This document shows positions 2-49,133 of a stretch of DNA of 50,325 nucleotides, in pieces. Origin of the DNA: an uncultured Erysipelotrichaceae bacterium (GTDB taxonomy: Bacteria > Bacillota_I > Bacilli_A > RF39 > UBA660). Numbering within the stretch: position 1 is the stretch's first letter; each line of letters starts with the position of its first letter. The notes below the pieces were generated by a model, which was given only the letters and a program-made list of their open reading frames with translations, had not been told where the DNA came from and did no database searches. The stretch lies in the NCBI GenBank assembly GCA_902801795.1, contig CADCJQ010000003.1:84129-134453 (forward strand), written 5' to 3'. The position numbers and the translations under genes are program-made.

Positions 2-1399
2 GATACAGGTGGAGTTAAATTAATTTATAATGGTGAATTAAATGCTATATATGGAGAAATGCCATTAACTGAAAGTCAATACACAATACCAAGTGGTGCA
101 ACAAATAATTTTACCTTTAATTCTACCGATAACAGTTGGGATATAACAATAACAGATAATACAGCAAAGGAAATTAGTTTTACAGTTCCAGCAGGAGATG
201 GATATAAATTAGTTCAAACAGGAACAAGTGGTTCATCAACAGGAGGACAATGGACATTCTATAAAGATGGTACAAATGTTGAATCATATGGTAATGGTGG
301 TGGAGAACCAATGAATGACACATATGAATTTGGTACACTAACATCAAGCAATGTTATAAAGTGGACATATACAGGAAGTTCAAGTGTAGAAAGTCCAATA
401 ACATTCAAATTACAAATGATGCAACCAGGAGATTTAATTACGGAAAATGGATGTGATAATACAGGATTTGATACACATATCAATATATCAGGAACAAATA
501 TTTTTGCATTTAATACAAAAAGTAATTCCCCAGCCTATGTAGGATACATGTATGGAACAGTATATCCAATTAGCATATCAAATTGGACAAGTGGAGCAAG
601 ATTTGGAAACAGTTTTACATGGGATGGAACAAATTATAAATTAACAGATGCAACAGTAACAAATCCAGATGCAACACATCATTATAGTTGCAATTCTACC
701 GATGCAGAAGGAACATGTACATCAATAAGATATGTTTATTGGATGAGAGAAAGTACAAAATTCTATATAACAATAAGTGATGGAAAAGGAATAGAAGAAG
801 CAATAAAAGATATGCAAACGAATACAAACCCATCAAATGCTAAAACCCAAATTGATGCATGGTATTTAAGTAATATGAATACTGTAACAAGTAAACTTGA
901 AGATACAATCTGGTGTAATGATAGAAGTATAGGAAGATATAATGGATGGTCAGCAACAGGAACAATAAATGGAACTTATTCATTATTGTTTGGAGCACAT
1001 GAAAGAAGTAACAATGCAAGTGGAACAAGCACAACAAAAAATCAACCAAGTTTAGCATGTGCAAACAAAAATGATGCATTTACAGTAAGTAATGGAAATG
1101 GAAACCAAAAATTACAATATCCAGTTGCAATGCTAACTGAGGATGAAATGGTTTTAGCAGGAGGAGTTTATGGTCAAACAAATGGAGCATTTTACTTAAC
1201 AATAGGAAATTGGTATTGGTCTTTGTCGCCTTCTTATTTCGACCACGTTGCCGATGGGTTTATCCTTTATGCCGGTGAAATCTACTACGACGCCATGAAT
1301 TTTGCTGGGGGTCTTCGTCCTGCCGTTTCACTTAAACCTGGAACGCCTGTAATAAGTGGTGAAGGAACGGTGTCATCTCCATATAGAATAGGAAATTAA
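2..1399 (+). CDS. Surface protein with variable-type C-terminal domain (5' end outside window)
   Basis: The frame is open to the left edge (from base 2), so the N-terminus is missing. The first internal ATG at base 59 is not the start, because codons upstream of it match the paralogue at 47441-49033 (DTGG-(V/I)-K-(L/M)-IYNG). The two proteins share SPAYVGYMY, WDGTNY, LEDTI.CN, a YPV..LT.DE motif and the C-terminal WSLSP...GLRP.VSLK block. That end resembles the FGE/C-type-lectin-like ends of DUF6273-type and retroelement-diversified proteins; this is a family impression, not a search result. By analogy with the paralogue, the missing part probably holds a membrane signal and a TasA-like module, so the protein is expected on the cell surface. 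Codons 1217-1336 are GC-rich against an AT-rich gene body. The binding partner is unknown. Confidence 0.8.
   Translation, partial: DTGGVKLIYNGELNAIYGEMPLTESQYTIPSGATNNFTFNSTDNSWDITITDNTAKEISFTVPAGDGYKLVQTGTSGSSTGGQWTFYKDGTNVESYGNGGGEPMNDTYEFGTLTSSNVIKWTYTGSSSVESPITFKLQMMQPGDLITENGCDNTGFDTHINISGTNIFAFNTKSNSPAYVGYMYGTVYPISISNWTSGARFGNSFTWDGTNYKLTDATVTNPDATHHYSCNSTDAEGTCTSIRYVYWMRESTKFYITISDGKGIEEAIKDMQTNTNPSNAKTQIDAWYLSNMNTVTSKLEDTIWCNDRSIGRYNGWSATGTINGTYSLLFGAHERSNNASGTSTTKNQPSLACANKNDAFTVSNGNGNQKLQYPVAMLTEDEMVLAGGVYGQTNGAFYLTIGNWYWSLSPSYFDHVADGFILYAGEIYYDAMNFAGGLRPAVSLKPGTPVISGEGTVSSPYRIGN
1217..1336 (+). other. Candidate DGR variable region (VR1)
   Basis: These 40 codons run from WSLSP to VSLK. 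By my count about half the bases are G or C, in a gene that is otherwise about 30-35% GC. Both edges match the segment at 48836-48961 almost base for base (tggtctttgtcgcct on the left, ggtcttcgtcc and gtttcacttaaa on the right), while the middle differs at most codons. A divergent centre between conserved flanks in a C-terminal lectin-like fold is typical of diversity-generating retroelement targets. No template repeat or reverse transcriptase is visible in the window. Some differences are T/C at third codon positions, which a single A-mutagenised template would not explain. Confidence 0.5.
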
Positions 1400-1408
1400 A
1401 AGTAGAAT

Positions 1409-1460
1409 GAGGAGCCTGCCGAAAACCCTTTCGGTAGGCGGAGTATATATTACGAAAAGG
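1409..1460 (+). other. Conserved hairpin downstream of VR1
   Basis: A 26-nt hairpin at 1414-1439 has an 11-bp stem (one G-T pair) and the 4-base loop accc. GAGGA precedes it and a GGA...ACGAAAAG tail follows. The same element lies at 49083-49133 after the paralogue, with a different stem sequence but all 11 pairs kept and the inner AAA/TTT conserved. There is no T-run after it, so it is unlikely to be a terminator. Hairpins or cruciforms downstream of the variable region assist target recognition in known retroelements, which is the role I infer here. Confidence 0.6.
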
Positions 1461-1611
1461 TAAATATACTATAAAATGAATTTAACAGAATTACCAAAAA
1501 ATATAGAAGTGATATTTTAAAATATATTTATGATATGAGTAAAGAAAATATATCAAAGGTTTTAAAAAGAAAACATAGACTGTCAATTAATATTATTTTT
1601 GCTAATTATAC

Positions 1612-3386: not shown

Positions 3387-4298
3387 ATGAATGAATTAGA
3401 AAGATTATCGAGCAATAATCAAGAAAATTATTTAAGATATTTAAGAAGAATGACTGAAAGTATGAAAGTGTCAACCAAAGGCTTAATACCAATTATGTGT
3501 AGTGATAAGAAAAATATTCTTGATGTAGGTTGTGGTAGTGGTGTTTTAATGCAAGCCATAGAAAATACTAATCCCAAAGCTACTATTACTGGTATTGATT
3601 TAAATGAAGAATCAATTAATAAATTAAAAAAATTGGGTAATAATTGGAAACTACACCATACTGACTTAATGAACATATCAAAAAATAAACAAGTGTTTGA
3701 TGCTATTATTTTCTCTTCTGTTTTACATGAAGTTTCATCATATTGTGATGATTTAGAAAAAAGATTTACTAGTGTTCCTATTGAAGAATGTTTTCAAAAA
3801 GCCAACGAATTATTATGCTTAGATGGAATTATTATTTTACGAGATGGATTATTAATTGACAAAAAAATGCGTAATCAAAAAGTGTATATTACTTTTAAAA
3901 ATCCAGAAGATGTTATTTGGTTATATCGTTTTCAAAAGGATTTTCAGGGCTTTGATAAATTAATTGATGTTGATAGAGACATAAAAGTAGTTAACAAGAA
4001 TACATTTATAGTAGGATTAACCTTTTTAAAAGAATTTTTATATACCTTTACATGGGGAAAAAGTAGCTATCCACGAGAAGTTAAAGAACGTTTTGGTATT
4101 CTCGATAAAGAAACTTGGTTACGTTTATTAGAAGAAAGTGGTTTTTATATTGATACAGTTGTAGAATCAAGAGAAGAATATGAAAAATATTTATCTCCTA
4201 AAGTAGAAATAACTAATATTAATGGTAATACTTTTACATATCCAATGATGAGTATTTTAGTAAAAGCAAAGAAAAATAAAGAATTAGTTAAGTATTAA
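3387..4298 (+). CDS. Class I SAM-dependent methyltransferase
   Basis: Predicted soluble methyltransferase of 303 residues. The SAM-binding motif I is ILDVGCGSG (about residues 42-50), followed by the acidic motif II ITGIDLNEESI and a motif IV-like DAIIFSSVLHEV. The C-terminal part contains FLYTFTWG, SYPREVKERFG and LLEESGF, seen in a group of Firmicute methyltransferases of unassigned substrate. I chose the ATG at 3387 because it follows a good ribosome site (tagggggattt) and because the upstream in-frame ATG at 3360 lies inside the -10 box. It is transcribed alone from its own promoter. The substrate cannot be read from the sequence. Confidence 0.85.
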   Translation: MNELERLSSNNQENYLRYLRRMTESMKVSTKGLIPIMCSDKKNILDVGCGSGVLMQAIENTNPKATITGIDLNEESINKLKKLGNNWKLHHTDLMNISKNKQVFDAIIFSSVLHEVSSYCDDLEKRFTSVPIEECFQKANELLCLDGIIILRDGLLIDKKMRNQKVYITFKNPEDVIWLYRFQKDFQGFDKLIDVDRDIKVVNKNTFIVGLTFLKEFLYTFTWGKSSYPREVKERFGILDKETWLRLLEESGFYIDTVVESREEYEKYLSPKVEITNINGNTFTYPMMSILVKAKKNKELVKY

Positions 4299-14736: not shown

Positions 14737-16860
14737 ATGCAAAACAATATTAATGATATAATTAGTAAAAAAATAGATAATATTGTAAAAAATAATAACA
14801 TTTTTCATGCTGGTAAAGTAACAAAAATTAATGACTTTATTATTGAAGCTACCGGTCTTGAAGATGCTTTCTATTTTGAAAAAGTATATATTAATAATGA
14901 AGATAATATTGGATATGTAGAACGAATAGAAGAAAATAAAGTTGTTATTTCATTAATAAAGAATAATGGTGATTTTTCTATCGGGGACTTTATAATTACA
15001 ACTGGAGAAATACTTCAAACTTCCTTTTCTGAAAATTCTATTGGAATGATTATTGATGCTTTTGGAATAGATAAAATGACAGAAAGAAAGATTAATGATA
15101 GTGTTACAATTCCAATTGAATCTAGAAAAATTTCTATTATGGAACGTAGTAGTGTTTGCCGACCACTAGAAACGGGAATTGCTGCCATTGATATGATGTT
15201 TCCGATTGGAAAGGGACAAAGACAGTTAATTATTGGTGATAAAAAAACAGGGAAAACGCAAATATGTTTGGATACTATTGTTAATCAAAAAGGTAAAAAT
15301 GTTATTTGTATTTATGTCGCTATTGGTAAAACAAAAAAGGAATTAAAAAATCTTTATGCTAAATTAGTTAGTAAAGGAGCACAGGCATATACATTGATTG
15401 TTGCCGCTTTCAATGATGATACACCACCATTAATAAAGTTAACACCTTATGTTGCCTTATCTATTGCAACATATTTAATGGAAAATGGCAAAGATGTTTT
15501 GGTTTGCATTGATGATCTAAAAAAACATGCTGATGCATGTCGTGAAATATCATTGTTATCAGAAAAAAATATTGGTCGTGAGGCTTATCCATCTGATATA
15601 TTTTATACGCATTCAAGACTACTAGAAAAAGGATGTCAACATCAAAATGGTGGATCAATTACGATTCTTCCAATTGTAGAAACAAGGGGCGAAGATATAA
15701 CTGATTATATTTCAACAAACATTATTTCTATTACTGATGGTCAAATTGTTTTATCAGAGAAAAACTTTAGAAAGGGACAAAAGCCTGCTATTAATTTTGG
15801 ACTTAGTGTATCACGTTTAGGAGGAGCAGTTCAAAAAGAAAGTATCAAAGCAATTGGTGCAAAGGTAAGAAGAGAATTGTTATCATATCTTGAAACAGCC
15901 GATGTTTATCAATTAGTTAATGTTGATTCTATGTCGGAAGAATTGAAAGAAAAACTAAAATTAGGACAAACACTATTAGATTTATTAAAACAGCCTAAAT
16001 TTACACCAATTGATGATAAGGATATAATTGAGCGATTTGGTTTTATATTAAATAATGATAAAAAAAGTGACAACACTTTAGAAAAAGAGTCTGATAATGA
16101 TGATTCAGACGATAATACTGAAAACAATTCAGAAGATGATGAAAACAATACAAATATAGATAATAACCAAGATAATGAAAATAATACTAGTATAGATAAT
16201 AACCAAGATAATGAAAATAATACTAATATAGATAATAACCAAGATAATGATTATAACGAAGAACAATCCGCAAATGAAACTATTGAAGAAGAAACTAACA
16301 TTATTGTTTTAAAAAATGATGAAGATGTTAGTAATGCCATTCTAAGAAGAAAAGAAAAAAGAAAAAAATATTATGATAAATATGATAAAGAAGAAAAAAA
16401 ACTTAACGATATTGCTATTAATCCAGTAACAGTAGAAGTAAATGAAAATAATACTGAAGACAATAATTCGGTAGAGATAAATCCATTGATACCAAACTAT
16501 GAAGAAAGTACTAGTGCTATGGAAATAAATCCGGTATCAGTAGAAGTAAATGAAAATAATACTGAAAATAATAATTCGGTAGAGATAAATCCATTGATAC
16601 CAAATTATGAAGAAAGTACTAATGCTATGGAAATAAATCCGGTATCAGTAGAAGTAAATGAAAATAATACTGAAAATAATAATTCGGTAGAGATAAATCC
16701 GTTGATACCAAATTATGAAGAAAGTACTAATGCTATGGAAATAAATCCGGTATCAGTAGAAGAGCAAGATGATAATACTGTTGAATTTCTAGATATAAAA
16801 AGTAATGAACAGGATATTAATAATAACGACATTGAAATATTCGATATTAATGGTGAATAA
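14737..16860 (+). CDS. F1 ATPase alpha-like subunit with repeat-rich C-terminal extension
   Basis: The first 450 or so residues are an F1 alpha homologue: N-terminal barrel, P-loop GDKKTGKT (GDRQTGKT in classic alpha), IDDLKKHADACREISLL, GREAYPSDIFYTHSRLLEKG, ISITDGQI, and GLSVSRLGGAVQ with the arginine finger in SVSR. Residues from about 445 to 707 are extra compared with the usual length of about 500. This tail is Asn/Asp/Glu-rich with a 12-residue repeat (three copies), a basic patch (ILRRKEKRKKYYDKYDKEEK) and a 36-residue repeat (three copies plus a partial). The tail is probably disordered, cytoplasmic and used for docking. The gene lies between the b/delta-like and gamma-like genes as in an atp operon. 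Conserved nucleotide-site residues suggest a working alpha/beta interface. Confidence 0.9.
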   Translation: MQNNINDIISKKIDNIVKNNNIFHAGKVTKINDFIIEATGLEDAFYFEKVYINNEDNIGYVERIEENKVVISLIKNNGDFSIGDFIITTGEILQTSFSENSIGMIIDAFGIDKMTERKINDSVTIPIESRKISIMERSSVCRPLETGIAAIDMMFPIGKGQRQLIIGDKKTGKTQICLDTIVNQKGKNVICIYVAIGKTKKELKNLYAKLVSKGAQAYTLIVAAFNDDTPPLIKLTPYVALSIATYLMENGKDVLVCIDDLKKHADACREISLLSEKNIGREAYPSDIFYTHSRLLEKGCQHQNGGSITILPIVETRGEDITDYISTNIISITDGQIVLSEKNFRKGQKPAINFGLSVSRLGGAVQKESIKAIGAKVRRELLSYLETADVYQLVNVDSMSEELKEKLKLGQTLLDLLKQPKFTPIDDKDIIERFGFILNNDKKSDNTLEKESDNDDSDDNTENNSEDDENNTNIDNNQDNENNTSIDNNQDNENNTNIDNNQDNDYNEEQSANETIEEETNIIVLKNDEDVSNAILRRKEKRKKYYDKYDKEEKKLNDIAINPVTVEVNENNTEDNNSVEINPLIPNYEESTSAMEINPVSVEVNENNTENNNSVEINPLIPNYEESTNAMEINPVSVEVNENNTENNNSVEINPLIPNYEESTNAMEINPVSVEEQDDNTVEFLDIKSNEQDINNNDIEIFDINGE
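16141..16248 (+). repeat. Three 36-bp tandem repeats in the alpha-like tail
   Basis: They encode ENNTNIDNNQDN three times in a row, almost identical at the DNA level. Copy number could vary without frameshift. Confidence 0.85.
16411..16734 (+). repeat. Three 108-bp tandem repeats in the alpha-like tail
   Basis: Units start at 16411, 16519 and 16627, with a partial fourth at 16735. Each encodes 36 residues beginning MEINPVSVEV and ending NYEESTNA. Units two and three are nearly identical in DNA, which points to recent duplication. Confidence 0.9.
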
Positions 16861-16862
16861 TT

Positions 16863-19263
<2,401 letters not shown>

Positions 19264-32670: not shown

Positions 32671-32712
32671 ATGTTAACTAATACTAATATTGGGGGGGGG
32701 TCATTTTTATAG
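32671..32712 (+). promoter_or_regulatory. Leader frame with a nine-G tract
   Basis: An ATG at 32671 follows a perfect ribosome site (aggagg). It opens a 13-codon frame that runs through nine consecutive G (32692-32700) and stops at TAG 32710. Loss of one G, or gain of two, would put this start in frame with the surface protein at 32768 and add 32 residues before its signal segment. Such G-runs are rare in this AT-rich DNA and prone to slippage, so this looks like a phase-variation switch. Confidence 0.55.
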
Positions 32713-32767
32713 ACCAATAATCCCTTTCTTAATTATAAAAAATATATTTAGAATGAAAGGAAGAAAT

Positions 32768-34249
32768 ATGAAAAATAATAATAAACAAATAATGTATAGT
32801 ATAATAGGAATTGCTATATTAATAATAAGTGTAGTTGGATTATCATTTGCATTCTTTAACTATACAAGAACAGGGGCAGCAAATACCTTAAAAACAGGTA
32901 ATATTAGTTTTAATTCAACCCAAGATAATACCATTAGTTTAACTAATGTCTTTCCAACGTCAAGTAATAGTTTAAATAGTACAATCTCAGATACAGTAAC
33001 AATAAATATAACTGGAGATACAACATACAGTGAAGGTATCGAATATAAAGTAACTTTAGATCAAGTTAATAATACTATAAATAATAAAGAAGTACCAATA
33101 AGTATAAGAGCAACAGCAACTAACTTAGGAACAGAAGATAGTAGTTATTATACAAATAGAACTAATAAAACAAAGATATATATGTTAAACTCTGAAGGCG
33201 AAGCCTATAATGGCAAATATATAGCAGTAGGATATATACCAGCAGGAACTACTGGAGTAGATGGTAGCATTGATATAACAGCATTTATTGATACCAATAA
33301 AGTAGCAATAAGTGATACTTATGATGGTACCGAATCTGATTTAATGGGAACAACAAATGATTGGGTAATGGGAAGAGAAGTGTTCACAACTACAGAATGG
33401 AATTCATTTGATAGTGTTAATCCACTATCCTTTAAAGTAAAAGTAGAAGCAAATGAAGGAATATGGGTAGAAAAAGAGAAGTTCTTAACAATGAAGAATA
33501 TATTTAATGATTCTAATTGGAGTTCAATAAGAGCGAATGTAACAAGTATAGAATTTCATAAAGATGGAATAGCACCATCAAATTACGTAACTTCATTTGA
33601 TGTAACAGATGAAACAAGTGATTCTAGTAAAGGAAATATAACATTATATACAGTAGATGATGGACTAGGTAATAATACCTATAAAGCAATAGTAGTTGCT
33701 AATGACATAATTTATGCACCGGAAAATAGTACCGCATTATTTAGAAAAATGTCAAAACTAACATATTTTAATTCCAAAAATTTTAATGTTGATAACGTCG
33801 TTTATATGAATAATATGTTCCGACAAAATATAAACCTAACAAATGTAGACGGTTTAATTAATTGGAACACATCAAATGTAGAAGGAATGATTGCTATGTT
33901 TTATGGGTGTACAAATTTAACAAATGTAGATGGATTAAGAAATTGGAATGTTGAAAATGTGATTGGTTCTGATGTTTTAGGTATTTCTGGAATATTTTCA
34001 ATGTTCCAGGATTGTACCAATTTAACAAATATAGATGGTTTAAGAAATTGGAATGTTGAAAATGTAACAAGTTTTCAAGCGATGTTTAGTCATTGTACGA
34101 ATTTAGAAAATGCTTCTGGAATAAATGATTGGAATGTAAATTCTGAAGCTGTCTTTGTTGGTATGTTTGCTTATACTCCAGTTCATCCGGAATTCACAAA
34201 ATTTCCTAATGGCACATGGAGTAATGGGACATTCACACCAAATGCATAG
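32768..34249 (+). CDS. TasA-like surface protein with BspA-type (DUF285) repeats
   Basis: Length is 493 residues from the ATG at 32768, which follows aaagga. A TTG at 32690 would extend the frame but has no ribosome site. The N-terminus is a signal/anchor helix ending in LSFAFFNYTRTG and leading into a TasA/camelysin-like beta domain (NTLKTGNISF...). The protein at 46963 shares this module. After about residue 240 come short repeats of the DUF285/BspA type (NMFRQNINLTNVDGLINWNTSNV, MFYGCTNLTNVDGLRNWNVENV), typical of adhesins. It is likely exported and surface-associated. It stands alone between a promoter and a terminator. The upstream G-tract may switch its expression or N-terminus. Confidence 0.8.
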   Translation: MKNNNKQIMYSIIGIAILIISVVGLSFAFFNYTRTGAANTLKTGNISFNSTQDNTISLTNVFPTSSNSLNSTISDTVTINITGDTTYSEGIEYKVTLDQVNNTINNKEVPISIRATATNLGTEDSSYYTNRTNKTKIYMLNSEGEAYNGKYIAVGYIPAGTTGVDGSIDITAFIDTNKVAISDTYDGTESDLMGTTNDWVMGREVFTTTEWNSFDSVNPLSFKVKVEANEGIWVEKEKFLTMKNIFNDSNWSSIRANVTSIEFHKDGIAPSNYVTSFDVTDETSDSSKGNITLYTVDDGLGNNTYKAIVVANDIIYAPENSTALFRKMSKLTYFNSKNFNVDNVVYMNNMFRQNINLTNVDGLINWNTSNVEGMIAMFYGCTNLTNVDGLRNWNVENVIGSDVLGISGIFSMFQDCTNLTNIDGLRNWNVENVTSFQAMFSHCTNLENASGINDWNVNSEAVFVGMFAYTPVHPEFTKFPNGTWSNGTFTPNA

Positions 34250-46962: not shown

Positions 46963-47340
46963 ATGATAAATGAAGAAAGAAAAAATAATAAAAAGCAAAA
47001 TATTCTAATAATAATAGGATTAATTGCTTTAATAAGTGTAGTAGGAGGACTAACGTATGCGTTCTTTAACTATACAAGAACGGGAAGTGGAAACACTTTA
47101 AAAGTAGGAAGAATGTCCTTTGTATCAAGACAAACAAATACAATTAATTTAACAAATCTATTTCCAATAGATCCAACTAATACCAGTGATATGAATGATA
47201 ATACAAAAGTTGGAACATTAACAATTGAAATAGAAGGAGATACTGATTATAGTGAAGGAGTAGAATACCTTATTAGTACAGTAAACTCCAGTTACAACCA
47301 ATGGAAAAGTATTACCAATAAGTTTAGATGTAACTATTAA
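46963..47340 (+). pseudogene. TasA-like surface protein, N-terminal part before a frameshift
   Basis: This piece has 125 codons with a strong start (aaggaggaagtaaag). It encodes a signal/anchor helix ending in LTYAFFNYTRTG and the first part of the TasA/camelysin-like domain, closely paralleling the intact protein at 32768. After TVN at about 47283 the frame turns into unrelated residues and stops at 47338. Reading one base later from 47285 restores homology (TPVTTNGKVLPISLDVTI). Removing one A from the AAA at 47283-47285 would join both parts into one protein of about 690 residues. It could be a true mutation, a switch, or an assembly error. Confidence 0.75.
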
Positions 47341-47440
47341 TTCTTTAGGAACATCTAGTGATAGTTATTGGACAGCTAGAAACTCTAAAAATGCTACTAT
47401 TTATAAAAAGATAGTAGGAGAAACATTAGAAGGAAACCAA

Positions 47441-49033
47441 ATGTTATTAGTAGGATATATTAAATCCAATAATCCAGTAGGAACAGCTGAAGGAATAGAT
47501 GGAAGTATAACTATAAAAGCCTATTTAGATAAAAATAAAATCTTAATAAGTGATACCTACAATAATGGAGAAGAACCAACAGAAACCAACGGAACACCTG
47601 CAAGTTTAGGTGAAGGAAAGACAGTATTTACAACAGCAGAATGGAATGCCCTACAAAGTAGTGGAGTATCTTTCCAAGTAAAAGTAGAAGCCAATCAAGG
47701 AATATGGGTAGAAGAACCTAGTGCATTTAATACAATAAAGAAAAATGTCAATACAACAACGCAAATTAATTTTGCTTATATATCAAGTTCAACAAATGGA
47801 CAAGGATTATATATTTTACCTGGAACAGAAAGCAATGTAAATCCAATTTATTATTATCGAGGAGCAGTAACTGATAATAACGTTATCTTTGGAGGTTTTT
47901 GTTGGCAAATGGTAAGAACAACAGATACCGGTGGAATAAAGATGATTTATAACGGTGTGGCAACAGGAGATGGAAAAACATGTGAAAATATAGCTCATAA
48001 TGACAGAATAATATCGTCAAGTGCATTTAACACTTCATATAATAGTCCAGCATATGTTGGGTATATGTATAATCAAAGATATACATATTCAAGTGGAGCA
48101 GCAGCAAGTAATTCGATATTTGGAAAAGCAGTAGAATGGGATGGAACAAATTACTTAGTAATAGAAGATACAGCTGGTAGTGCATCGACAAATACAACAC
48201 TTGATGCAAATCATCATTATACGTGTGGAACGGCAAGTACAAGCAGTTGTTCAAGTGTAAGATATTATTACTATAATAGTGGTTCAAGTTATTACTATAT
48301 AACACTAACAAATGGAGATACAATAGAAGATGCTTTATATAAAATGACTGGCAATGGCTCATCCACCACGAAAGCAAAAAATGCAAGTTATGTATTAAAT
48401 ACAACGGATTCAAAAGCCAAAACAGAGATAGAAAATTGGTTTAAAACAAATTTAACCAATGAATTAGATGCAAGTAAAATAAATTACCAAGAATATTTAG
48501 AAGATACAATATATTGTAATAATAGAAGCTATAGGACAGTAGGAAGTTCAAGTACATATACACAAAGTGGATGGAATCCAAGTGGCGAAAGCTTGTCAAC
48601 ATATTTATATTTTGGTTCAAATGATAGAGCATATAATAGTAATTGGTATAGTACAACAAATATACCAAGTATGGAATGTGAGAATGTAACAGACAGATTT
48701 AGTGTAAGTAACCAAGAAGCGAAATTAAAATATCCAGTAGGCTTATTAACAGCAGATGAAATAATCTTAGCAGGGGCATCAGGAAATGGTGGTACAACAA
48801 ACAATACATATTATTTATATACGGGAAATTATTACTGGTCTTTGTCGCCTTACGGCTTCGACAACGACCGCGCCATCGGGTTCGATGTGCGCAGCTATGG
48901 CTACTTGAGCGGCGACGGCGTGCGTTACAGTTACGGTCTTCGTCCCGTCGTTTCACTTAAACTTGGAACAGAGTTTGAAGATGGAGGAGAGGGAACAACT
49001 TTGAAACCATATGTGGTAAAAATAGCAGAATAG
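47441..49033 (+). CDS. Surface protein with variable-type C-terminal domain (3' part after frameshift)
   Basis: This is the rest of the gene that starts at 46963. The frame is open from about 47285, and the ATG at 47441 is only the first available start. Residues up to about 90 complete the TasA-like module (VFTTAEWNAL, VKVEANQGIWVEEPS, shared with the 32768 protein). The remainder parallels the gene at the left edge of the window: TTDTGGIKMIYNG, SPAYVGYMYN, WDGTNY, LEDTIYCNNRS, YPVGLLTADE. It ends in the lectin-like block WSLSPYGFDN...GLRPVVSLK. Codons 48836-48961 are about 59% GC by count. Without the N-terminal part the protein would have no export signal. The likely role is surface recognition or adhesion. 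Confidence 0.75.
   Translation: MLLVGYIKSNNPVGTAEGIDGSITIKAYLDKNKILISDTYNNGEEPTETNGTPASLGEGKTVFTTAEWNALQSSGVSFQVKVEANQGIWVEEPSAFNTIKKNVNTTTQINFAYISSSTNGQGLYILPGTESNVNPIYYYRGAVTDNNVIFGGFCWQMVRTTDTGGIKMIYNGVATGDGKTCENIAHNDRIISSSAFNTSYNSPAYVGYMYNQRYTYSSGAAASNSIFGKAVEWDGTNYLVIEDTAGSASTNTTLDANHHYTCGTASTSSCSSVRYYYYNSGSSYYYITLTNGDTIEDALYKMTGNGSSTTKAKNASYVLNTTDSKAKTEIENWFKTNLTNELDASKINYQEYLEDTIYCNNRSYRTVGSSSTYTQSGWNPSGESLSTYLYFGSNDRAYNSNWYSTTNIPSMECENVTDRFSVSNQEAKLKYPVGLLTADEIILAGASGNGGTTNNTYYLYTGNYYWSLSPYGFDNDRAIGFDVRSYGYLSGDGVRYSYGLRPVVSLKLGTEFEDGGEGTTLKPYVVKIAE
48836..48961 (+). other. Candidate DGR variable region (VR2)
   Basis: Forty-two codons from WSLSP to VSLK show a sudden rise in GC. The codons are dominated by C or G at the third position (GGC, GAC, CGC, AGC, TAC), which is what substitution of AAC-rich template codons would produce. 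The flanks match VR1 at 1217-1336 nearly exactly, while the centre is different and two codons longer. No template or reverse transcriptase was found in the window. Confidence 0.5.
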
Positions 49034-49082: not shown

Positions 49083-49133
49083 GAGGAGTGCCCTGAAAAT
49101 CCTTTTGGGGCACGGATAAAATATAACGAAAAG
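49083..49133 (+). other. Conserved hairpin downstream of VR2
   Basis: A 26-nt hairpin (49088-49113) has an 11-bp stem with two G-T pairs and loop atcc, preceded by GAGGA and followed by GGATAAAATATAACGAAAAG. It has the same size, loop length and flanks as the element at 1409-1460. The stems differ at six pair positions, all still pairing. No T-run follows. Confidence 0.6.

Follow-up and report, generated by a model that had tools for sequence, protein, structure and literature searches.

Two distant genes in the DNA analysed here are, with high probability, remote targets of a cellular diversity-generating retroelement (DGR). Their C-type-lectin tips would have been written by adenine-mutagenic retrohoming, each gene is followed by a putative homing hairpin whose loop is specific to the clade of the reverse transcriptase (RT), and both copies are now probably orphaned. 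The stretch analysed, hereafter the window, spans 50,325 nucleotides (C3:84129-134453) of contig C3 in a MAG of an uncultured gut Bacilli bacterium (1.51-Mb, 81 contigs, 71% complete). Positions without a contig name refer to the window, and the features are collected in Table 1.

Table 1. Features of the two window target genes, their downstream hairpins and the DGR repeats on contig C3.
Feature	Position	Strand	Remarks
Left target gene, C-terminal part	59..1399	+	DUF6273-like C-type-lectin domain
Left variable repeat (VR)	1217..1347	+	
GAGGA prefix, left hairpin	1409..1413	+	
Left putative DGR target-site hairpin, 11-bp stem, loop ACCC	1414..1439	+	GCCTGCCGAAA-ACCC-TTTCGGTAGGC; coordinates also from covariance model
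Left conserved tail	1440..1459	+	GGAGTATATATTACGAAAAG; common to the genus's other remote targets
Serine recombinase C-terminus remnant, codons ~590-620	1476..1567	+	directly after left hairpin tail
Right target gene	46963..49033	+	camelysin-like N-terminus, C-type-lectin C-terminus
Right variable repeat (VR)	48836..48961	+	
GAGGA prefix, right hairpin	49083..49087	+	
Right putative DGR target-site hairpin, 11-bp stem, loop ATCC	49088..49113	+	GTGCCCTGAAA-ATCC-TTTTGGGGCAC; coordinates also from covariance model
Right conserved tail	49114..49133	+	GGATAAAATATAACGAAAAG
Template repeat (TR)	C3:79145-79270		
Cis target VR	C3:78688-78813		

The target genes have a camelysin/TasA-like N-terminus, and a DUF6273-like C-terminus is seen in relatives. 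In the left gene, the camelysin/TasA-like N-terminal part is encoded in a different frame, outside the window on its upstream side. A 2-nt deletion near 47292 breaks the right gene into two pieces, 46963-47340 and 47441-49033. Both genes carry a frameshift in the assembly sequence, and frameshifts in a MAG can reflect errors of assembly. A previous reading of the sequence only had described GC-rich 3' segments at 1217-1336 and 48836-48961 with near-identical edges, and this was borne out. Their GC content is 47.5% and 57.1%, respectively, against 26.8% for the whole window, and the edges of the two segments match without a difference over TGGTCTTTGTCGCCTT on the left and have GGTCTTCGTCC and GTTTCACTTAAAC in common on the right. 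The AlphaFold model of the right target reached a pLDDT of 90 when predicted from 37 sequences (41 from 10 sequences), and it places the VR near the C-terminus, in a C-type-lectin fold. Structural matches of this model are mostly C-type lectins (Z 4-6), the best one being an IgA peptidase from Thomasclavelia ramosa (Z 13.8). According to these predictions, the window genes are TasA/camelysin-like surface proteins with a C-type-lectin tip at the C-terminus. Neither Rfam matches nor tRNAs were found within the window.

The only RT of the genome, of 491 aa, is encoded on the same contig ~4 kb upstream of the window (C3:79789-81261). It matches RVT_1 (56 bits) and phrog_1423 (1.6e-75), shows the motifs IGAMTSQ, of the DGR-type xGxxxSQ form, and YMDD, and carries MutS_I (PF01624, 'MSL') at residues 359-404, in its C-terminal part. 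The sequence-only reading had pointed to a DGR RT with a 'QG'-type motif: the enzyme is there, with an IGxxxSQ-type motif instead. The gene preceding it is Avd-like (phrog_3206 'Avd protein of DGR', 8e-8), and we take it as the Avd of the locus, with bAvd and DivGenRetAVD scores below the curated Pfam / NCBIfam cut-offs. As anticipated for template and variable repeats, the mismatches between the C3 TR and the cis VR fall on template adenines, in 24 out of 24 cases inside the repeat. The C3 locus is a complete DGR, comprising an RT with a MutS-I tail, Avd, TR and a cis target. In 38 TR/VR pairs from relatives of this RT, 733 of 1257 adenines were mismatched versus 24 of 2249 other bases; these pairs had been picked for adenine-only windows, so a control on the template base was needed, and in 80 loci it returned 40 pairs with A as the mutated base, none with C, four with G and two with T. 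The named RT relatives in public genomes come mostly from uncultured gut Bacilli. A phage origin of the C3 element was considered and is unsupported: the RT has no match above about 36% in viral and phage collections, and the left segment has no DNA match in phage records.

Regarding the hairpins, the two 26-nt structures described earlier, with an 11-bp stem, a 4-base loop, a GAGGA prefix and a ACGAAAAG tail, were recovered at the positions in Table 1. The two stems differ in six of eleven pairs and all 22 pairs are standard when G-U is allowed; the claim that the six differing pairs still pair is therefore right, three of them doing so solely as G·U. The 50 kb contain just four hairpins with such features (11 bp, a 4-nt loop and four or more G-C pairs), two of which are the ones described here. 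Among 14 relatives, 98.1% of the stem cells pair, two-sided changes occur at 8 of the 11 pairs, and the covariation score is 0.864, compared to 0.194 when shuffled and <=0.13 when slid. The covariation of the hairpin is strong. The stem is also more variable than its surroundings, with a mean identity among the copies of this genome of 0.41 for the outer stem versus 0.82 for the tail. The tail is kept among the copies of the genus and absent from the cis targets of other genera, which do have the hairpin. Non-Watson-Crick pairs amount to 9/99 in remote hairpins versus 1/205 in cis hairpins, the latter being a biased set chosen for good pairing. Reading RNA rather than DNA pairing from the count of G-T versus A-C pairs was tried and rejected, as the pairs (6 to 0) are too few and not independent.

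A covariance model of the hairpin was built from 14 copies and run on the whole genome and then on 291 genomes of the family. In the source genome it gave eight matches, all eight directly behind VR-type genes, and two of these targets (C20:2325 and C4:24778) were first revealed by the model. In the 291 family genomes the model hit 19, and several of the matches, some of them close to contig ends, could not be judged; nearly all those with readable upstream sequence sit 20-65 nt past the stop codon of a VR-type gene. Of eight genomic copies of TGGTCTTTGTCGCC, seven lie in VR-type genes (two of them in the window) and one in a truncated TR on contig C7. Members of the set on C54, on C4 near 35847 and on C41 have no recognisable hairpin. 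The window VRs are of DGR type, and their hairpin is of the same type as that of the cis targets.

The proposal that these genes are DGR targets working in trans stands as far as the DGR in the genome, the VRs and the cis-type hairpin are concerned, and falls short on the template. The intact C3 TR has ends (GGGGGGCTTCGCC...GGGGCGCGTGGCG) that differ from those of the window VRs and cannot serve as their template. The matching template that had been proposed as a search target does exist, in truncated form: the assembly contains a single TR with TGGTCTTTGTCGCC, at C7:~1870-1950, in which the leader (GGGTTAAACTATTAATATAGATTAA) and the two edges survive and the middle and the 3' region are gone. 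On C20 a leader is present without a TR. Intact TGGTCTTTGTCGCC-type TRs were found neither in the assembly nor in viral contigs, and among 386 family genomes only in G144, of another genus; at 71% completeness, an intact matching TR may be absent from the assembly alone. Compared with the G144 TR, which has the same edge, nine VRs of the genome (the two of the window plus seven) are mismatched at 62% of A versus 33% of other bases (p=1e-18), this proxy from another genus being the basis for the adenine bias of the window VRs. The right VR departs from its nearest counterpart, in genome G002, at 16 first, 14 second and 2 third codon positions, compared to 9, 7 and 14 in the flank; the same comparison is less clear for the left VR. 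The adenine excess and the codon-position pattern of the right VR together point to past mutagenic homing.

One could argue that diversification of the remote targets goes on, with an intact TGGTCTTTGTCGCC-type TR lying in the unassembled 29% and used in trans by the C3 RT. Six remote target ORFs are free of frameshifts (C4 near 24800, C4 near 35847, C7, C11, C14 and C20, the last one ending at the contig end), most hairpins are kept, the MAG is 71% complete, and the third codon bases of the VRs are mostly C or T, with A rare (13/566), unlike in the flanks. Nevertheless, the sole matching TR is truncated, both window genes are frameshifted, and non-Watson-Crick pairs are more frequent in the remote than in the (favourably selected) cis hairpins. 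We therefore see ongoing diversification as a possible but rather doubtful reading. Orphaned targets fit better than current action in trans, because the intact TR is mismatched at its ends and the TGGTCTTTGTCGCC TR has lost parts, and the window copies are most likely orphaned former targets. In our reading, the target genes spread by insertion and the template was lost later.

In the mechanism that we propose, the RT would copy the TR RNA with errors at adenines and the mutagenised cDNA would replace the VR, so that the C-terminal C-type-lectin tip would be rewritten. From the analogy with phage BPP-1 we infer a role in homing for the hairpin, which at ~70-130 nt past the VR, and here with an ACCC loop, would promote integration of the cDNA. 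The window copies would have been diversified in the past by a TGGTCTTTGTCGCC-type TR and would be orphaned at present, to judge from the differing ends of the intact TR, the truncation of the matching TR on C7 and the frameshifts in both genes.

The loop of the hairpin follows the RT. Among 37 cis loci of related RTs, 21 have an ACCC-type loop (median 108 nt past the VR) and seven a CTCC-type loop (median 80 nt). The CTCC class, with a stem of the form ...TGA-CTCC-TCA... located 77-105 nt past the VR, is confined to one sister RT clade (L129, L131, L136, L137 and L146-L148). With the same script, 22 of 64 loci of viral RT relatives showed a GRNA loop, the consensus published for phages (PMC3240598), at a median of 39.5 nt past the VR, and none of the 64 an ACCC or CTCC loop; of these classes, ACCC and CTCC were drawn up once the cellular loci had been viewed, unlike GRNA. 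The cellular hairpins have neither the GRNA loop nor the 4-34 bp distance from the VR end that mark those of BPP-1. On a quick RT tree, which includes very long branches for a few rows, the two loop classes require a single change, and 0 of 500 shuffles did as well. Related RTs with an ACCC-type loop are also found in Saccharibacteria.

A role as transcription terminator or mRNA stability element, with the hairpin merely accompanying the genes, is a reading that we find very improbable. It would agree with a position just past the stop codon and with non-Watson-Crick pairs that are G-T in six of nine cases and A-C in none, as pairing in a sense-strand RNA allows. However, no T-run follows the hairpin, and a distinct hairpin of terminator type comes after it in several of the remote copies. 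Moreover, every match in the genome sits behind a VR gene, the loop class tracks the RT clade, and in two Saccharibacteria loci the hairpin is apparently within the coding region. As a separate observation, the DGR targets of these two loci (L096 and L097) combine a sorting-signal-like C-terminus with an ACCC/ATCC hairpin, which suggests transfer between Bacilli and Saccharibacteria.

Hairpin and tail could instead mark the terminus of a mobile cassette that carries the target gene, and act in its movement rather than in homing. A decayed serine recombinase gene flanks the left target (~2.6 kb) with its two halves, codons 553-585 before the target gene and the ~590-620 remnant on the opposite side, and the target ends close to the hairpin tail. 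Besides, the target on C14 splits a tadA-tadB pair whose members are adjacent in four congeners, and the tail is conserved among the genus copies; for the C11 target, no clear empty site was found in congeners, where gene order has changed. The cis targets of other genera, though, have the hairpin without the tail, no cassette-specific recombinase was found, and the loop class tracks the RT, making this reading very unlikely. Finally, the target genes are indeed paralogues, but the reading that no DGR was involved and that point mutation and gene conversion made the 3' ends of an ordinary family diverge is almost certainly wrong and in the main refuted, given the DGR with its TR, a right gene whose VR and flank differ at opposite codon positions, and VR third codon bases sharply unlike those of the flanks.

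Some observations concern the surroundings of these elements. The left target region has a tRNA-Thr gene and an intact recombinase as neighbours. L002:3771-16000 (C3:73771-86000) contains tRNA-Thr, an intact serine recombinase, remnants of a second recombinase and a 66-nt direct repeat (3889-3954 and 12861-12926 of L002, 89%), and the C3 DGR may sit on an integrative element accreted in tandem. At L066:6922-7018(-) (G144:C42), a second TR copy that has lost nearly all its adenines lies beside the working TR, as if the TR itself had been overwritten by mutagenised cDNA. In the window, an operon at 6805-31592 encodes F1-ATPase-like alpha (14737-16860), gamma (16863-17657) and beta (17660-19015) subunits flanked by giant proteins of 1744 aa and 3496 aa without Pfam matches. 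The alpha and beta subunits match the MMOB1660/MSC_0618-type mycoplasma models below cut-off, and the operon may be a relative of the mycoplasma F1-like ATPase machines in a bacterium with sporulation genes. A PARCEL-repeat / DUF285 surface protein, of a kind known in mycoplasmas and Listeria, is encoded at 32690-34249.

We tentatively put forward that the loop acts as an address: the RT/Avd/RNA complex of each clade would recognise its own loop (GRNA, ACCC or CTCC), and any gene equipped with the matching hairpin and with a short end of homology would become a target, whatever its location. If so, the loop class would predict which RT acts on which remote target. Because the loop tracks the RT clade, target recognition by DGRs becomes directly testable. 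A large survey of DGRs states that targets away from the RT are missed (PMC8144416); the hairpin model alone, with neither RT nor TR, finds non-adjacent targets, with 8/8 matches behind VR-type genes in one genome. In the searchable open-access literature we found no report of ACCC/CTCC loops, of a loop class linked to RT clade or of target finding by the hairpin only, and both the clade-specific loop and the hairpin-only search appear to be new.

The DGR of Bordetella phage BPP-1, in which the target hairpin promotes cDNA integration (Guo et al. 2011, PMC3240598), has been reconstituted in a laboratory E. coli strain (PMC12875486). The system described here resembles it in having RT, Avd, TR and a VR at the 3' end of a gene, and a GC-rich inverted repeat with a 4-nt loop 3' of the VR in which the stem sequence is free and the structure kept. 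It differs from it in the loop (ACCC-type versus GRNA), the distance from the VR (median 108 nt versus 4-34), the stem (mostly 10-12-bp versus 7-10), its cellular rather than phage setting and the fusion of the RT to MutS-I. The MSL domain (PF01624) is known as a DGR accessory domain (PMC10053308) that is also found on the C3 RT, where it is the C-terminal part of the RT itself. A lineage-specific loop is shared with nanoarchaeal DGRs (PMC4372165, PMC5006420), whose hairpin lies inside the coding region and has a GRA trinucleotide in place of the ACCC- or CTCC-type loop seen here. Remote and leftover targets are already known (PMC4891356, PMC7517822). The report on cyanobacterial DGRs (PMC7517822) describes dispersed targets with a C-type-lectin domain at the 3' end, like ours, and proposes that cruciforms activate remote targets; we saw no comparison of hairpins in the text consulted, and the targets it covers are mostly cytosolic, unlike the surface proteins with a camelysin-like N-terminus found here. 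In Treponema denticola (PMC4891356), as here, several VR genes are distant from the RT, and one remote target was read as a leftover of a DGR type that had been lost. That leftover was recognised by similarity to a TR, whereas the hairpin model finds targets without one, and remote targets of this kind are possible fossils that outlive their template.
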